DNA of 64,000 nucleotides from Candidatus Saccharimonadota bacterium (GCA_017406985.1 JAFQXL010000004.1:123708-187707); one strand, 5' to 3'. Counted from the stretch's first letter, positions 57,554-63,904 are shown. Notes: generated by a model from the letters alone, not told the origin. Numbers and translations: made by a program.

Positions 57554-58177
57554 TTACGGTTCAACAGGAGCAGCGTTTGCAGAGACGGTGTAGGTAATTA
57601 CGTTAGCATAAGTACCAGCAGCCTGATCTTTATCAGTTGCGAAGTTGTAAGTCATTTCAATGTCTTGTTCTTCTGCACCAGTTGTCGAGGTACCGACATA
57701 GACGTTCTGTCCAGCAGTCGTGATAGCTTTGTTGGAGAGGAGACCACCAGAGATGTTCCAGCCGCCGCCAGTCATACCAGCGGTTAAAGCACCATCTACC
57801 GCGGCGATAGTATCAGTAGTATCGGCACTATGGAGGGTTAAGTTGTTGCTATCGTCAGTTCCTTTATCGGCGACAGTCAAAGTCATACCATATTTATCAT
57901 TCGTACCAATCGAGACAGTGTGAGCACAGCTTCCCGTTGCGTTAGGAAGTAATGAGCTAGCAGCGGCACAAGTTTTAGTACGACCAGACGTATCGTCGGA
58001 CGGATCGGTTTGGTCACGACCAGAGTCAACAGCGATACCAACAGCATTCGCGACTTCGAGTTGGACTGTTACATCGGCCGAGTCAGTGTCGGCAATATAT
58101 GGAGTTACAGTGTAGTGATCTACGGCGAAAGTGCCGAGTGGGAGGGCGGCTACGCCGAGGCCGGCTGCGAGAACTTG
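57554..58177 (-). pseudogene. Silent surface-protein cassette A (no start, no promoter)
   Basis: Open frame of 207 residues from a TAA at 58178-58180 to the stop at 57554. It begins inside the signal peptide (VLAAGLGVAALPLGTFAV) and continues as a secreted beta-rich protein like the complete gene at 61296: DVTVQLEVANAVGIAV, two Cys in TKTCAAASSLLPNATGSCAH, SIGTN, MTLTVADK, WNISGG, MTYNFATDKDQAAGTY and ITYTVSA. There is no ATG, ribosome site or promoter before it; the sole in-frame ATG, at 57886, would drop the N-terminal third. The frame shows no decay, so it may be a donor for gene conversion, not a dead copy. Confidence 0.8.
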
Positions 58178-58219
58178 TTATTTTAGGTTGTTTTCCACAG
58201 AGAGGAGGGGGGAGGTCGG
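58133..58219 (-). repeat. Cassette border A: 38-bp anchor plus flank and GTTTTCCACAGAGAGG
   Basis: The 38-bp anchor (58133-58170) encodes AAGLGVAALPLG and is identical in all four copies. GAACTTGTTATTTTAGGTT and GTTTTCCACAGAGAGG follow (to 58205), identical in A, B and C, then a G-rich tract to 58219. Confidence 0.88.
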
Positions 58220-58232
58220 AAATAAGTAGAGG

Positions 58233-58370
58233 TTGTTTTTTATTAAGATAAGTGATATAATTAGGTTAATGCAGCGACTGGTAAGTAGTTGGTTTACCCC
58301 TGCGGCATAGTGGCGAAGGTCCTATGCAGGTCGCAGCGCCAAAAAATCCTCTTTCCGGAGGACTTTTTGT
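58233..58370 (+). ncRNA. Candidate small RNA with own promoter and terminator
   Basis: Plus-strand TTGTTT (58233-58238), 17 bases, TATAAT (58256-58261), predicting a start near 58268. About 100 bases follow with a GCATAG/CTATGC stem and GCGAC/GTCGC pairing, ending in TCCTC/GAGGA (58347-58351 with 58358-58362) and five T. No coding frame with a ribosome site lies inside. The terminator is bidirectional and also serves the DUF3800 gene. Confidence 0.6.
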
Positions 58371-58384
58371 TACCCTAGCGCAGA

Positions 58385-58966
58385 CTAATCAGCTATCTCA
58401 ATAAAAGCTAAGACTTTCTTCGCAATTGCCTTATACCATCTATTTGCCGTTGGTGTATTTTTAACCTTCTTAGCAGATATATTGACTACATAGTCTGCAA
58501 CTTGAATCAGACGACTATTTCTGGAATTTCTTTCCCGAAGTTTGATATATTTTATTCTGCGTTTGCGAATTTCTTTGCGTATTTCTGTGTAAAATATAGG
58601 ATTTGAATCCATCTCAATCTTAATTTCCGGAAAGCGTTTCTGAATTTCGTCGACCAGAAGTCCTGCAATGCGACTATACGAAGCCGTTTTCTTAAAATCA
58701 TTTTTATGTATAGCAATAGTTATGAAACGAAATTCAAGATTTGTGAGAGTTTTTAGAAATTCTGTCTGCGGCCTAGTCGAGTTACTACTACAATGAAATT
58801 CGTAATCATCAGGTAGTCGTAATTCGTTCCTTAACCTCTCAATAATAGAAATACTTTTATCCCGTTTTTCCTCGGAACTAAATAAGATTAGGCTTACTAC
58901 TAAACAATCTTTACTGTGGCTTGCGATGCCTGGAGCACCAGATTCGTCAATATACCCAAATATCAT
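58385..58966 (-). CDS. DUF3800 protein
   Basis: 193 residues. The N-terminal YIDESG (Asp7, Glu8), LVVSLILFSSEE and the C-terminal LIQVADYVV are the DUF3800 pattern, a predicted RNase H-like metal-dependent fold found in phages and accessory regions. Biochemical role is unknown. The -10 (58974-58979) is 7 bases before ATG, so it is expressed independently. It sits between silent cassettes A and B; AT-rich codons differ from housekeeping genes, consistent with cargo. Confidence 0.8.
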   Translation of the reverse strand: MIFGYIDESGAPGIASHSKDCLVVSLILFSSEEKRDKSISIIERLRNELRLPDDYEFHCSSNSTRPQTEFLKTLTNLEFRFITIAIHKNDFKKTASYSRIAGLLVDEIQKRFPEIKIEMDSNPIFYTEIRKEIRKRRIKYIKLRERNSRNSRLIQVADYVVNISAKKVKNTPTANRWYKAIAKKVLAFIEIAD

Positions 58967-58992
58967 GCTAATAATTATAGCATACTTGAGCT

Positions 58993-59024
58993 AAAAATAA
59001 GACCTCGAGAGAGGTCTTATTTTT
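58993..59024. terminator. Hairpin at the 3' end of silent cassette B
   Basis: Near-perfect stem AAAAATAAGACCTC/GAGGTCTTATTTTT around GAGA. Cassette C has the same stem around TCTC. Confidence 0.88.
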
Positions 59025-59035
59025 AGCCTACCTAA

Positions 59036-59668
59036 TTAGTCGTTGATAGAGACAGAGTACGTAATAGTATCAGTGTAAACACCAGCTGGCTGGTTGGCAG
59101 CAGTGCCGAAGTTGTAAGACATAGTAACATCAGCTTCTTCTGCTTTTGTACCAGTGTAGATAGTGATCGGGCTATCTGTACTAGCGACCATGGCTGCGTT
59201 GGTTACGGAAGCAAGCGGAGTATATTCGCTGCCTTCAGTAGTGACCGTAGTACTTGCAGAGACGGCCGAAATGTTCCATTTCGAAACACCGTCAGCAACG
59301 GCACCAGTTCCAGTGTCAATGTGGGTAGAAGCAGCATCATTACCGAGAAGATAGGTGTTAGCATCTTTATCTGCAACGGTAAGAATCATACCATTAGAAG
59401 AGTTCGTACCAATCGTAACAATACCGTTTACGCTACCATGAGAGTTAGGCATTAACGACGTAGCGATAAGTGCGTGGTGTTTATCCGTATCTTCGTCCGG
59501 ATCAGTTGCCTGTCCGTTATCTACAGCAATACCAACGCCTTCTTGAACCGTAAGTTGAAGAACAACATCAGCATCTTCTGGTTCAGCTTCATATGGTTGT
59601 GGTTGATAAGTTACAGCAAAGGAGCCGAGTGGGAGGGCGGCTACGCCGAGGCCGGCTGCGAGAACTTG
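59036..59668 (-). pseudogene. Silent surface-protein cassette B (no start, no promoter)
   Basis: Open frame of 210 residues from the TAA at 59669-59671. Same layout: VLAAGLGVAALPLGSFAV, YQPQPYEAEPEDADVVLQL, VGIAVDNG, no Cys pair, SIGTN-like TIGTNSSNGM, LTVADKD, WNISAV, EADVTMSYNFGTAANQPAGVY and ITYSVS. Variable segments differ strongly from the other copies in sequence and length. No promoter or start in front. Confidence 0.8.
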
Positions 59669-59710
59669 TTATTTTAGGTTGTTTTCCACAGAGAGGAGGG
59701 GGGAGGTCGG
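59624..59710 (-). repeat. Cassette border B: anchor plus GTTTTCCACAGAGAGG
   Basis: Anchor 59624-59661, shared flank, and GTTTTCCACAGAGAGG from 59681, with the same G-rich tail as border A. The 9 bases just before the anchor differ from the other copies. Confidence 0.88.
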
Positions 59711-59737
59711 AAAAAGTAGTGAGGCGACGGCTTCTAG

Positions 59738-59796
59738 TAAAAAAGGGAGCCCCTCGCGGAAGGTGAATGCTCACCGTGCGATAGGCTCGCTATAAC
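59738..59796 (-). ncRNA. Candidate small RNA or structured 3' end after the nuclease gene
   Basis: Minus-strand TTGACA (59823-59828, inside the last codons of the nuclease gene), 17 bases, TACTAT (59800-59805). The predicted 60-base RNA has GAGCC/GGCTC closing pairing (59784-59788 with 59747-59751), a GGTGA/TCACC hairpin and a run of seven T. It contains GAGCCTATCGCAC, close to the leader element at 28834-28846. It could be only the nuclease terminator. Confidence 0.45.
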
Positions 59797-59805
59797 ATTA
59801 TAGTA

Positions 59806-60207
59806 TCAAATGAACTTATTTATGTCAATAATTTCCCCTCGTTTATTGATAAAGATTATCTTTTTTAGTCCCTTACCATTACGAAGACATTTTACTAATT
59901 CGTTTAAAATCTTATTGTCTCGGACTCTCATTCTAGAACTATCAAAGATAATATTGGGACATTTTTCTAAAGCTCTAGTTAAGTTACGCTCAACTGCATC
60001 TATTTTATCGCTTGTCGGAGATTTTATTTCATATTCAGTTCTCCCTAAATAAATATCAGGTGTCTTAATTGAGGCTTCAGGGATAAACTCTATAATATAC
60101 CCCACCTTAGCGAGAATCGTCGCCGCGCGTTTTTCGTGCGGCCAAGGATTTGCGCTAGCAGGAGTAATGACTTTTCCGCTTTTCTGGTTTTTACCTCGCT
60201 TTGTCAT
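59806..60207 (-). CDS. PD-(D/E)XK nuclease resembling CdiA-CT toxin domains
   Basis: 133 residues. Glu25 (HEKRAATILAKVGY), Asp51 (IKTPDIYL) and Glu60-x-Lys62 (YEIKSP) give the PD-(D/E)XK order; NLTRALEKCPNIIFDSSRMR and KKIIFINKRGEIIDI match the C-terminal nuclease domain of CdiA contact-dependent inhibition toxins by pattern. It stands alone without a secretion partner. No immunity gene is recognisable, though the DUF3800 gene or an RNA could serve. -10 is 7 bases before ATG. Lies between cassettes B and C. Confidence 0.65.
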   Translation of the reverse strand: MTKRGKNQKSGKVITPASANPWPHEKRAATILAKVGYIIEFIPEASIKTPDIYLGRTEYEIKSPTSDKIDAVERNLTRALEKCPNIIFDSSRMRVRDNKILNELVKCLRNGKGLKKIIFINKRGEIIDINKFI

Positions 60208-60254
60208 GTTGTAAATTATACTACGTCCTATCTAATAGTTCAAGAGTTTTCCAC

Positions 60255-60286
60255 AAAAATAAGACCTCTCTCGAGGTCTTATTTTT
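60255..60286. terminator. Hairpin at the 3' end of silent cassette C
   Basis: Stem AAAAATAAGACCTC/GAGGTCTTATTTTT around TCTC, next to a second GTTTTCCACA (60247 onward). Confidence 0.88.
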
Positions 60287-60293
60287 AGCCTAC

Positions 60294-60983
60294 TTAATTA
60301 AGAGAAACGGTGTAGGTAAGAACGTTCTGATAAACACCAGCAGCCTGATCGACAGCAGTCGCAACATCGTAGGTCATGTTGATATCAGTTTCTTCTGCTT
60401 CGTGTCCAACATAGACCGTTTTAGCCGTTTGTCCATCTAAGACTTGATTGCTGAAGCCAGCAGCAGTGCCGGAACCAGTTGTAGTTTCACCGCCGATGTA
60501 GCCGGAGCCACCACCAGTAGTTGGGAGAGCAGCAGAGATATTCCAGCCCGGAACCCAAGTTCCGCTTTGGTCGCCAATAGCTGCTACCATAGGAATCGAA
60601 CGGTTCGTAGTAGATGAAGCAGCGCTATTGAAGAGATTTGTATCTCCCGCCTTGTCAGCAACAGTGAGGTTCATACCACCAGCAGCGTTTGTACCAATAG
60701 AGACCGCGTCACCAAAACTTTTGTGCTGTTTTGGAGCAAAGAGGTTGGCGTTTGCGACTACATCAGTATCCGAGAAGACGTGAGAAGTCTGTTTGTCTGC
60801 ATCGCTATCTGAAGATGTAGAGGCATCAGAGGTATCGACTGCAATTCCGACTCCTTCAGCAACTTTTAACTGAACCGTAACATCAGCGCTTTGGTCGCTA
60901 GTTTCATACGGAGTAGTCGTATAGGTTGTAGCGAAAGTGCCGAGTGGGAGGGCGGCTACGCCGAGGCCGGCTGCGAGAACTTG
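60294..60983 (-). pseudogene. Silent surface-protein cassette C (no start, no promoter)
   Basis: Open frame of 229 residues from the TAA at 60984-60986, the longest copy. VLAAGLGVAALPLGTFATTYTTTPY, SADVTVQLKVAEGVGIAV, no Cys pair, SIGTNAAGGM, NLTVADK, a longer second variable block, WNISAALPT, then AEETDINMTYDVATAVDQAAGVY and LTYTVSLN. Only the in-frame ATG at 60674 exists, deep in the gene. Its border is the closest match to the complete gene (identical for 49 bp). Confidence 0.8.
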
Positions 60984-61022
60984 TTATTTTAGGTTGTTTT
61001 CCACAGAGAGGGGGGGGAGGTC
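60928..61022 (-). repeat. Cassette border C: anchor plus GTTTTCCACAGAGAGG
   Basis: Anchor 60939-60976; identity with the complete gene extends back to 60928. GTTTTCCACAGAGAGG from 60996, followed by a tract of eight G as in the expression-locus copy. Confidence 0.88.
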
Positions 61023-61079
61023 AGAAAGAGGCGGGCGACAAACAAAAAAACAAGTTTTTTGCTTGCTTAATTCCTAGCG

Positions 61080-61166
61080 TGGTGCACCTGACTAGACTCG
61101 AACTAGCACAGCCTTTCGGCCACTACCACCTCAAGGTAGCGTGTATACCAATTTCACCACAGGTGC
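61080..61166 (-). tRNA. tRNA-Leu (anticodon GAG)
   Basis: 87-base class II tRNA: acceptor GCACCTG/CAGGTGC, anticodon loop TTGAGGT with GAG at 61130-61132, a long variable arm, T-arm GGTTCGAGTC-type (GTTCGAGTCTAG), encoded CCA at 61080-61082. It lies between the complete gene and silent cassette C and is followed by its own T-rich terminator. Confidence 0.93.
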
Positions 61167-61249
61167 ATAATCACCCGCTAGATATATTTATCTTACCCTA
61201 AAAACAGTTAAAAGTCAAGGTACCAAATATCCCCTTCACGTTTTAAGCT

Positions 61250-61284
61250 AAAAAATAGAGCCTCCGAGGAGGACTCTATTTTTT
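61250..61284. terminator. Hairpin at the 3' end of the complete surface-protein gene
   Basis: Stem AAAAAATAGAG/CTCTATTTTTT (61250-61260 with 61274-61284) with inner CCTCC/GGAGG. The downstream TTTTTAGCTTACTTGATTAGTC resembles the 3' border of cassette B. Confidence 0.88.
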
Positions 61285-61295
61285 AGCTTACTTGA

Positions 61296-61895
61296 TTAGT
61301 CAGCAGTTACCGTGTAGGTGATAACGTCAGAGTAAGTACCAGCCATCTGATCAACGTTAGTTGCGAAGTTATAAGTCATAGAGACATCCATTTCGCCAGC
61401 GGCTTCTAGGTTATCAACTGTCTGTGCAGTGGTGCTGATACCGGCATTAGTTAAGTCACCACCAGTAATGTTCCATCCGGCAGTGCCAGCAACGACAGCG
61501 GAACCGTCTTGAGCTGGGATTGGATCGCTTCCGGTCGGGCCAACGAGGCTAGTGTTAGTTTCGGAAGTTGCGTTTACAACCGTAAGAGTTGCTGGGGTGT
61601 TTGCACCGATAGAAACTACATGTGTACAAGTCGCAGTCGAGTTCGGGAGAACGTTATTAGCAGCACAGGTATAAGTACGTCCACCAGTAGCGCCATCTGC
61701 AGAACGTCCGTCAGCAACAGCGATACCAACCGATTTTTTAATTGAAAGTTGAACAGTTACATCTGCGCTTTGTGTATTGTCAACATACGGGGTAACGTCA
61801 TAAGTCGCCGTAGCGAAAGTGCCGAGTGGGAGGGCGGCTACGCCGAGGCCGGCTGCGATACCGAGAGCTGCAACAAATTTTGTAGATTTAGTCAT
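61296..61895 (-). CDS. Expressed surface protein (complete copy of the cassette family)
   Basis: 199 residues. Full signal peptide MTKSTKFVAALGIAAGLGV (cleavage near 26-30), then a Thr/Ser/Ala-rich beta protein: ADVTVQLSIKKSVGIAV, Cys77 and Cys90 (a likely disulfide), SIGANTPATLTVV, variable block, WNITGGDL, DVSMTYNFATNVDQMAGTY and ITYTVTAD. No membrane anchor or sorting motif is visible, so how it stays at the surface is unclear. It is the only family member with a start codon, Shine-Dalgarno site (AAAGGA) and promoter (TTGACA-N17-TATACT). Predicted to be the expression site that silent cassettes A-C can rewrite. Confidence 0.82.
   Translation of the reverse strand: MTKSTKFVAALGIAAGLGVAALPLGTFATATYDVTPYVDNTQSADVTVQLSIKKSVGIAVADGRSADGATGGRTYTCAANNVLPNSTATCTHVVSIGANTPATLTVVNATSETNTSLVGPTGSDPIPAQDGSAVVAGTAGWNITGGDLTNAGISTTAQTVDNLEAAGEMDVSMTYNFATNVDQMAGTYSDVITYTVTAD
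61821..61858 (-). repeat. 38-bp anchor in the complete surface-protein gene
   Basis: Identical to 58133-58170, 59624-59661 and 60939-60976. It encodes residues about 14-25 of the signal peptide. In the complete gene the preceding 37 bases carry the start and first 13 codons. Confidence 0.93.
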
Positions 61896-61996
61896 GATTT
61901 TTTCCTTTTTGTTATTATATTTATTATTGTTTTAGCTTTTGATTTATATGACCTTAAAGCTATTATTAGTATATCGTTTTATAATGCTTATGTCAA
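61896..61996 (-). promoter_or_regulatory. Promoter and leader of the expressed surface-protein gene
   Basis: Perfect -35 TTGACA (61991-61996), 17 bases, -10 TATACT (61968-61973). The leader of about 70 bases has a TAGCTT/AAGCTA stem and AAAGGA. None of this is present at the silent copies. Confidence 0.85.
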
Positions 61997-62043: not shown

Positions 62044-62069
62044 GTTTTCCACAGAGAGGGGGGGGAGGT
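62044..62069 (+). repeat. GTTTTCCACAGAGAGG with eight-G tract, upstream of the expression locus
   Basis: Fourth copy of the cassette border motif. Here it lies about 150 bases upstream of the gene start, beyond the promoter; in the silent copies it follows the anchor after only 19 bases. Confidence 0.85.
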
Positions 62070-62164: not shown

Positions 62165-63904
62165 CTATGGCGTTCTATTTTTACTAATTGGCTCGATTCC
62201 CCAGCGTTTCACGTCAATAAAGCGCTCGAGCGGGGTAACGAGTTTATTCTCCGAGCTAAAACTCCTAACATTTTTATTTACGAAGTAATTATAATTTGTC
62301 TGATAGATTCCGAGTGCAGGGACGTCTTCGACGAAGTATTTTAAGAAGTTCTCATATTTTCGTTCGCGGAGCGTTTCGTTCATCGTGCTTCTCGCGGAAA
62401 GAACGAGGTCGGAGACGACGGCGCTTCGATAGTTCGATAAGTTATGTCCGTTTCCGTTCGCCTCGGTAGAATGAAAATAAGCGAAGAGATCCGGATCGGC
62501 GCCAAGCCCGATTTCATAAACTAGAATATCATAAGCGCGCTGAGTCAAGACGTTAAAGAGAAAATCCTGATTAGAATCATAAGAATTAACAGTTACGGAG
62601 AGTCCGAGCGAGCGGATTTCTTCGGCGAGCTTTTCTGAAACTTCCGGAAGGAAGCTCGACTTAACGGTTACGATATTAATTCCCCGCTTTTTTAATTCCG
62701 GATCATTATCTAAAATATCTTTAATCGATTTTTTCGCGGTATTCGTATCAAGAATCGGCAGACTCGGGACGTTTTCGAGAGACATCTGTGTCTCGGTAAT
62801 CGGGAAGTCGAGGGCGTGTTCCCCATTTAAGACGCTTCGGACATTTTCCATATTAATTCCCTGCTGAAGCGCTTTTCGAAGTTTTTTATCGTTAATCGAT
62901 TCGACATTAAAGAAAGCGAAGACACCATAATTTAAAGAACTCTGTTTTTCGGTAATATTAGCCGAAGTAACCTGTTTCGCGTCGCTTCCAGAGAGGGCGC
63001 CAGAGGCAGTAATCGTTCCGTTATTTAAAGCAGAGATAATATCGGAAGTTTTTGTAAAGGCATGGACAACGAAACTATCAATTAGAGGTCGCCCCTCGAA
63101 ATAATGTTCGTTCGCAGTTAAATAAACGGTTTTTTCGCCGAGATTCCCGATAGTCTGGGTTGCGTTATAAGAGAAGGCACCCGAGCCGACCGGCTTTAGA
63201 GAGAAAGAATGTTCTAGAATTAGCTCTGGAGCAACATCGCCTAAAATGTGTTTCGGAAGAATCGGGAAGTCGAGAGCAGATTCAAAATAGGCGTTCGCGG
63301 TCGAGAGAGTAAAAACTAGAGATTTTTCAGACGTTTCTTCAACTTTTACGCCAGAAAGATTACTCGAGTAGCTACTATTTAGGAGCGGGTTTTTAATTAA
63401 ATTAACAGTAAAGAGGACATCTTCATTCGTTAAAGGCTCTCCGTCAGACCACTTCAAGTTTTCGCGAAGTTTAACGTTCCAGTTTTTTCCGGAATCGTCA
63501 ACGGTAATACTCTTCGCGAGAGCGAGGCCGGAATGTCCAGAATAGTCAGGAGAAGAAAGACTAGAAAACATTAAACGACTCAAAGTTTTTTCAGAGTTAG
63601 AGTCTGCGAAAAGCGGATTTAGAGTGTCGATTTCGCCGAGCGTCCCCTCGATATAAGTTCCACCCTCTTTATAAGTTTCGGTCGCATAAGACTCGGAATA
63701 CCAGTAGGCCTGAGTTAGACTTAAGAAAATAATCGCAAGAACGAGGAGCGACCATTCGAGGATTAAAAGACGAACCTGACGGATATGAGAAAAACGATCG
63801 ATTACGTTTTCTTGGACGTGTTCAATCGTGTCTTCGCCGGCTTTTTTCGAAAGAAAAGTCAGTTTTTTAGTTAATTTAGTCCCACTCCCTAGCTTCTTCT
63901 TCAT
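62165..63904 (-). CDS. Membrane-anchored extracellular solute-binding protein, family 5 (oligopeptide type)
   Basis: 579 residues. GGTYIEGTLGEIDTLNPLFADSNSEKTLSRLMFSSL and WNVKLRENLKWSDGEPLTNEDVLFTVNLIKNP are SBP_bac_5 motifs, as are LRKALQQGIN and ADPDLFAYFHS. Instead of a lipobox, the protein has a basic cytoplasmic N-terminus (1-45) and one membrane helix (about 46-66). It would capture peptides at the surface for an ABC importer whose other parts are not in the window. The start lies 2 bases after a SecG-like gene, so the two are probably cotranscribed. Confidence 0.9.
   Translation of the reverse strand: MKKKLGSGTKLTKKLTFLSKKAGEDTIEHVQENVIDRFSHIRQVRLLILEWSLLVLAIIFLSLTQAYWYSESYATETYKEGGTYIEGTLGEIDTLNPLFADSNSEKTLSRLMFSSLSSPDYSGHSGLALAKSITVDDSGKNWNVKLRENLKWSDGEPLTNEDVLFTVNLIKNPLLNSSYSSNLSGVKVEETSEKSLVFTLSTANAYFESALDFPILPKHILGDVAPELILEHSFSLKPVGSGAFSYNATQTIGNLGEKTVYLTANEHYFEGRPLIDSFVVHAFTKTSDIISALNNGTITASGALSGSDAKQVTSANITEKQSSLNYGVFAFFNVESINDKKLRKALQQGINMENVRSVLNGEHALDFPITETQMSLENVPSLPILDTNTAKKSIKDILDNDPELKKRGINIVTVKSSFLPEVSEKLAEEIRSLGLSVTVNSYDSNQDFLFNVLTQRAYDILVYEIGLGADPDLFAYFHSTEANGNGHNLSNYRSAVVSDLVLSARSTMNETLRERKYENFLKYFVEDVPALGIYQTNYNYFVNKNVRSFSSENKLVTPLERFIDVKRWGIEPISKNRTP

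Follow-up and report, generated by a model that had tools for sequence, protein, structure and literature searches.

We analysed a stretch of 64,000 nucleotides (nt), hereafter the window, from Candidatus Saccharimonadota bacterium (GCA_017406985.1 JAFQXL010000004.1:123708-187707). It carries four related genes for a secreted protein, one complete (D) and three lacking a start codon (A, B, and C), which probably form an expression site with a small archive of silent copies. All four lie on the minus strand, where the initial annotation had placed them (coordinates in Table 1). As proposed there, D is a complete gene for a secreted protein: it has a signal peptide, an ATG preceded by a purine-rich ribosome site, and the promoter TTGACA-17-TATACT, which no other sigma-70-like match on its strand surpasses. 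The description of A, B, and C as open relatives lacking both start and promoter was also borne out. None of the three has an ATG, GTG, or TTG within its first 50 codons, the same TAA lies directly upstream of each, and no promoter was found within 150 nt upstream of them. We rejected translation of the silent copies from internal starts because their first ATG lies, respectively, ~97, 72, and 103 codons into the frame, past the signal peptide.

The truncation of the silent copies is larger than first described. They had been thought to lack the first third of the signal peptide; the loss is real, but it covers ~12 of its ~28 residues, which is more than a third. Each silent copy also retains a segment of the DNA that precedes the promoter of D (TTTTCCACAGAGAGG...), a feature that the initial annotation had missed. 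The flank TTTTCCACAGAGAGG accompanies all four copies and has no other occurrence in the genome (731 kb), even when up to 3 mismatches are allowed. The window has exactly three occurrences of the 28-nt repeat at the junction, where shuffled sequences gave an expectation of 0.00. In terms of its sequence, a silent copy looks like D minus everything between the promoter and about codon 12. A G-rich pattern in two tiers adjoins each copy, and it is found in the window genome only.

The window belongs to a 554-kb contig of a genome that is 97.9% complete and that has 173 genus mates in our collection. In six other genomes (G054, G055, G038, G161, G160, and G157), relatives of D closely follow the same solute-binding-protein gene; of these genomes, G054 and G055 come from roe-deer rumen and G038 from goat jejunum. 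Two of them, G054 and G038, have both an expressed gene after the solute-binding-protein gene (E54 and E38) and an open copy without a start (S54 and S38). In all three species, i.e., those of the window, G054, and G038, a startless copy is placed 96-181 nt after a tRNA-Leu(GAG). The lesions differ among species: S54 shows a clean deletion of promoter, leader, and ATG that spares codons 3 onward, and S38 has an altered -10 box and has lost the leader and the first codons. Yet, each lesion abolishes promoter function and the start while sparing the frame. Of the family members that we inspected, a start codon is present in 62 that are distinct and full-length. The survey of the genus, restricted to full-length copies by setting aside contig-end fragments and short broken pieces in other loci, revealed five startless ones (A, B, C, S54, and S38), all at this locus. 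There were no relatives among viral contigs.

The 5' arms and the bodies of these genes appear to have different histories. Within each genome, the signal-peptide arms of silent and expressed genes match exactly over long stretches (38-49 nt between D and A, B, or C, 80 nt between S54 and E54, and 59 nt between S38 and E38), while the bodies of copies within one genome are only ~50-65% identical in nucleotides. The same 48 nt of the arm are only 73-83% identical between the three species. After an old duplication the arms would have diverged, and after a recent one the bodies would still be alike, which is why we favour intragenomic conversion of the 5' portion: near-identical arms joined to unlike bodies are a sequence signature of gene conversion. 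The trees point in the same direction: copies cluster mainly by genome in the arm tree, whereas in the body tree silent C pairs with silent S54 (support 100) and silent B with expressed E54 (support 86). Between C and S54, identity reaches 97.3% across a block of 714 nt whose limits are the signal-peptide arm and the terminator. The neighbouring genes for the solute-binding protein and for an efflux protein are only 77.2% and 75.5% identical between the window and G054. This difference indicates that the silent cassette was passed between species.

The silent frames are well preserved. We found no stop and no frameshift across the 1,064 codons of the five silent copies, where ~0.8 stops are expected per 1% of neutral divergence. 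More than ~4% of neutral change since silencing is therefore hard to reconcile with these data, and we take this value as the likely ceiling. The ratio of nonsynonymous to synonymous differences (pN/pS) is 0.55-0.60 in the pairs among A, B, and C, and 0.63-0.72 in the expressed pairs D/E54, D/E38, and E54/E38. The silent frames thus show no sign of relaxed constraint. To judge from these comparisons, their bodies are either under selection or recently exchanged with expressed alleles.

The product of D is likely to be a pilin-like subunit of a fibre or an adhesin, according to structural modelling. No family of Pfam or NCBIfam matched D, A, B, or C above the cut-off, and there was no sequence match in the PDB. 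A structure model built from 55 relatives, which replaced an earlier one built from 13 sequences (mean predicted local distance difference test, pLDDT, of 69), reached a mean pLDDT of 81.8. It has a disordered or extended N-terminal part followed by a beta-sandwich predicted to resemble those of donor-strand pilins. The top Foldseek matches are the pilus subunits CfaB, FimA, and CsuA/B (probability 1.00, E-values from 2e-4, template-modelling scores of 0.4-0.55), and TasA and archaeal bundling pili come lower among the matches. The CPR Pam pilin C-terminal domain (NF058581) shares with the family a weak profile similarity, found in two of 13 relatives (best E-value 5e-4, below the cut-off), and a predicted pilin-like fold. 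However, D itself has no match to this profile, whose true members belong to different families within the order. We also considered a WxL identity and rejected it: a neighbouring gene in sister species gives only a WxLIP-like match below the cut-off, and the predicted structure favours pilins.

We regard as the probable explanation of these data, with moderate confidence, a system akin to pilS/pilE, in which one expression site is served by a small archive of silent alleles for a secreted pilin-like fibre subunit. Transcription and translation would be limited to D, and A, B, and C would store coding information that lacks a promoter, a ribosome site, and a start. Homologous recombination dependent on RecA would begin in the identical signal-peptide arm, and its tract would end at short similarities in the framework or the terminator. 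A silent body would thereby be copied behind the promoter and start of D, and the cell would display another variant. Trade in silent bodies between species would use these arms as well, with natural transformation as the probable route. The genes for RecA, RecO, and ComEC are present in the window genome, and cultivated Saccharibacteria are naturally competent (PMC10633639). Homologous recombination via the 5' arm would be the simplest mechanism, and gene conversion the mode of transfer, because the donor lacks the promoter and start of D. The tRNA-Leu would be lost if D and C, as direct repeats, recombined reciprocally, so gene conversion may be favoured on this ground too. The sequences show the anatomy of the locus, its conservation in three species, the homogenised arms, the open frames, and the cassette exchange between species; we infer the direction from silent to expressed, the dependence on RecA, the frequency, the surface role, and the benefit, for which the initial annotation had suggested host range or phage escape. 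The reading of silent cassettes is nevertheless well supported, because the layout is found in two more species, the arms are homogenised and the bodies divergent, the exchange between species is bounded by the cassette, the frames are not relaxed, and RecA, RecO, and ComEC are encoded.

Several observations weigh against this interpretation. D and the silent copies have no exact word of at least 20 nt in common outside the 5' end, and the 3' end of a conversion tract would therefore depend on short similarity. Segmental mosaics inside the bodies, as initially envisaged, lack statistical support: the tract test was not significant after 28 comparisons. There is no canonical G-quadruplex (G4) at the locus. 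The repertoire of three silent copies is small, silent copies are absent from G055 and G157, and the contigs of G160 and G161 stop beside the tRNA. By their titles, the genomes G054, G055, and G038 are isolates from gut samples, presumably assembled from metagenomes. Finally, the homogenised arms show that conversion took place, not its speed or its direction. The main rival, unlikely in our view but to be taken seriously, is that the silent copies constitute a slow bank of alleles, either former or imported. They would recombine with the expressed gene and with other species over evolutionary time alone, through transformation and occasional conversion, and no frequent switch would be programmed. 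The exchange of a whole silent body between species, arms that are explicable as products of ordinary recombination, the failure to find a dedicated recombination signal at the locus, the few cassettes, and the presence of competence genes would all fit this scenario. On the other hand, promoter and start were lost independently at the same place in three species, with the frames spared, and the constraint on the silent frames is not relaxed, both of which suggest that the silent state is maintained.

This preservation of the frames makes it improbable that the copies are decaying duplicates, i.e., tandem copies stripped of their 5' ends and on their way out, even if they lack start and promoter and are missing from some species. 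The five copies have accumulated neither stops nor frameshifts in 1,064 codons, their pN/pS is not raised, and plain duplication and decay could not produce near-identical arms next to divergent bodies. Switching driven by a site-specific recombinase instead of homologous recombination is suggested by sister species that have inverted pairs of family genes with a tyrosine- or serine-recombinase gene between or beside them. We consider it very improbable in the window, where the copies are directly oriented and have no adjacent recombinase gene, where simple recombination between direct repeats would remove the tRNA-Leu, and where the only gene of the phage integrase family (313 residues) and the only one of the resolvase family lie ~93 kb away. 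We give hardly any credence to a chimera of metagenome assembly: although the relatives are gut-sample bins, presumably of metagenomic origin, the layout is found in three genomes with species-specific flanks on either side of each silent copy, and the window is on a contig of 554 kb.

The proposed expression site and its silent copies can be compared with known systems. The initial claim of a layout with silent cassettes and an expression locus is well supported by the comparison of species, but not as a pure array, because unrelated genes and a tRNA separate the copies. The resemblance to pilE/pilS of Neisseria lies in the single promoter-bearing gene, the nearby 5'-truncated silent copies with conserved segments and variable bodies, the pilin-like product, and the presence of RecA-type recombination genes. 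In contrast with Neisseria, the product is not a type IV pilin, the arms are homogenised at the 5' end only, there are just three silent copies with other genes in between, and switching is putative. Recombination features of the pilS/pilE type are lacking at the locus: we found neither a Sma/Cla-like 3' repeat nor any other defined 3' recombination sequence (no exact 3' word of at least 20 nt), and no pilE-type canonical G4. As in vlsE/vls of Borrelia, a single expression site is accompanied by silent open cassettes with variable segments between conserved ones. Yet, the vls cassettes are arrayed contiguously and flanked on either side by 17-bp direct repeats (PMC3585125), whereas here the arms are at the 5' end only, the near full-length copies are split by genes, and the contig is chromosomal, not a linear plasmid. 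Short direct repeats flanking both sides in a contiguous array were not found at the window locus. Neither the defining repeats (3' or flanking) nor the G4 turned up when searched for, and we therefore advise against classing the window system with either the Neisseria or the vls type. In the pilin inversion of Moraxella bovis and in invertible promoters, one promoter serves alternative bodies whose 5' sequence is identical. G079, G171, G167, and G056, all sister species, appear alike in this respect, but the window copies are startless direct repeats with no recombinase gene beside them.

In these four species, inverted pairs of family genes have 5' arms that match exactly over 149 nt (G171), 132 nt (G056), 86 nt (G079), and 66 nt (G167), and a promoter matching at least 10 of 12 positions was found before only one copy of each pair. 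The pairs are head-to-head in G171, G167, and G056, and tail-to-tail in G079. A gene for a tyrosine recombinase lies between the copies in G171 and G167 (truncated in the latter), and one for a serine recombinase in G056. By their arrangement, these pairs resemble switches that would vary the same protein by inversion. A tentative generalisation, which we rate slightly below an even chance, is that across this genus of ultrasmall bacteria one promoter repeatedly serves several bodies of a pilin-like surface protein via an identical 5' arm, by differing mechanisms of DNA rearrangement, and that silent alleles are traded between species. The arrangements would comprise direct silent cassettes used by gene conversion in the window clade, the head-to-head pairs around a recombinase gene, and the tail-to-tail pair.

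Most known cases of antigenic variation by silent cassettes come from animal pathogens that are exposed to antibodies. We found no description of it for Patescibacteria in the open literature searched, and one study mentions it there only as an open question (PMC11809585). The cultivated relatives among Saccharibacteria grow on host Actinobacteria (PMC10633639). If true, the system would sit in a presumed bacterial epibiont, so its variation may be driven by a bacterial or phage partner. The competence of cultivated relatives makes the idea of silent cassettes testable. If the genus-wide reading is also true, different mechanisms of rearrangement would serve the variation of one contact protein.

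Table 1. Features of the locus (window coordinates) and related pairs at other loci (coordinates within each locus).
Feature	Position	Strand	Remarks
SBP_bac_5 gene upstream of D, synteny anchor of the clade	62165-63904	-	
D 5' flank, G/C-run and TGTGGAAAAC	62044-62069	-	Recurs before each silent copy, where the promoter between flank and arm is deleted
D promoter, TTGACA-17-TATACT, 11/12	61968-61996	-	
D, complete gene, 199 residues, ATG start, signal peptide and predicted beta-sandwich body	61296-61895	-	
D signal-peptide arm	61810-61858	-	Exact match to A (46 nt), B (38 nt), C (49 nt)
D terminator hairpin	61244-61290	-	
tRNA-Leu(GAG) between D and C	61080-61166	-	Same place in G054 and G038; sole Rfam match over the locus
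C 5' arm: flank, TAA, remainder of signal peptide	60927-61028	-	
C, putative silent copy, 229 open codons, no start	60294-60983	-	Body 97% identical to silent G054 copy
C terminator hairpin	60255-60289	-	3' limit of block common to G054
CdiA_C-domain (PF18451) gene between B and C	59806-60207	-	
B 5' arm	59612-59713	-	
B, putative silent copy, 210 open codons, no start	59036-59668	-	Body groups with expressed G054 gene
B terminator hairpin	58990-59027	-	Reverse complement of C hairpin
DUF3800 gene between A and B	58385-58966	-	
A 5' arm	58121-58222	-	
A, putative silent copy, 207 open codons, no start	57554-58177	-	
Inverted same-family pairs, candidate inversion switches	L033 303-1584, L054 7630-9011, L045 8613-11220, L077 845-2124		

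Some elements between the copies deserve mention. In G054, a CdiA_C-like gene and a small gene are found between the expressed copy and the tRNA-Leu (L040 7087-7880), and the start of this CdiA_C-like gene is 85% identical to the window gene at 59806-60207. The end of the latter contains a strong promoter-like motif, TTGACA-17-TACTAT, followed by a short GC-rich hairpin and a T-run just upstream of silent B (59743-59828, minus strand), possibly a small RNA or an insulating terminator. Upstream of A, on the plus strand (58256-58369), a TATAAT-like box precedes a structured stretch and a terminator-like hairpin; this element has no match in Rfam and is possibly another small RNA.

Two other loci contain pairs of family genes. 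G149 encodes two identical full-length genes with identical 5' flanks, 1,883 bp apart (L050 6824-7501 and 8707-9384), which are either a recent duplication or an assembly artefact. G044 has two directly oriented genes with identical leader and signal peptide (L072 3328-5834), the second of which has a degraded promoter and an intact start.

We also checked for diversity-generating retroelements. There is no reverse transcriptase gene in the span of the window, and the differences among the copies include indels and affect all codon positions. The genome has two such genes, at C1:39146 and C3:64239. Two candidate retroelements outside the window (L096 4761-9035 in G000:C1 and L097 5348-9371 in G000:C3) each include a reverse transcriptase of ~370 residues, an accessory gene, and a large target ending in IRCV/VRCVAR. 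Their template repeats differ from the 3' end of the target at adenines only (4-5 in 60 nt, with 0 other mismatches), and on this pattern both are likely to be diversity-generating retroelements.

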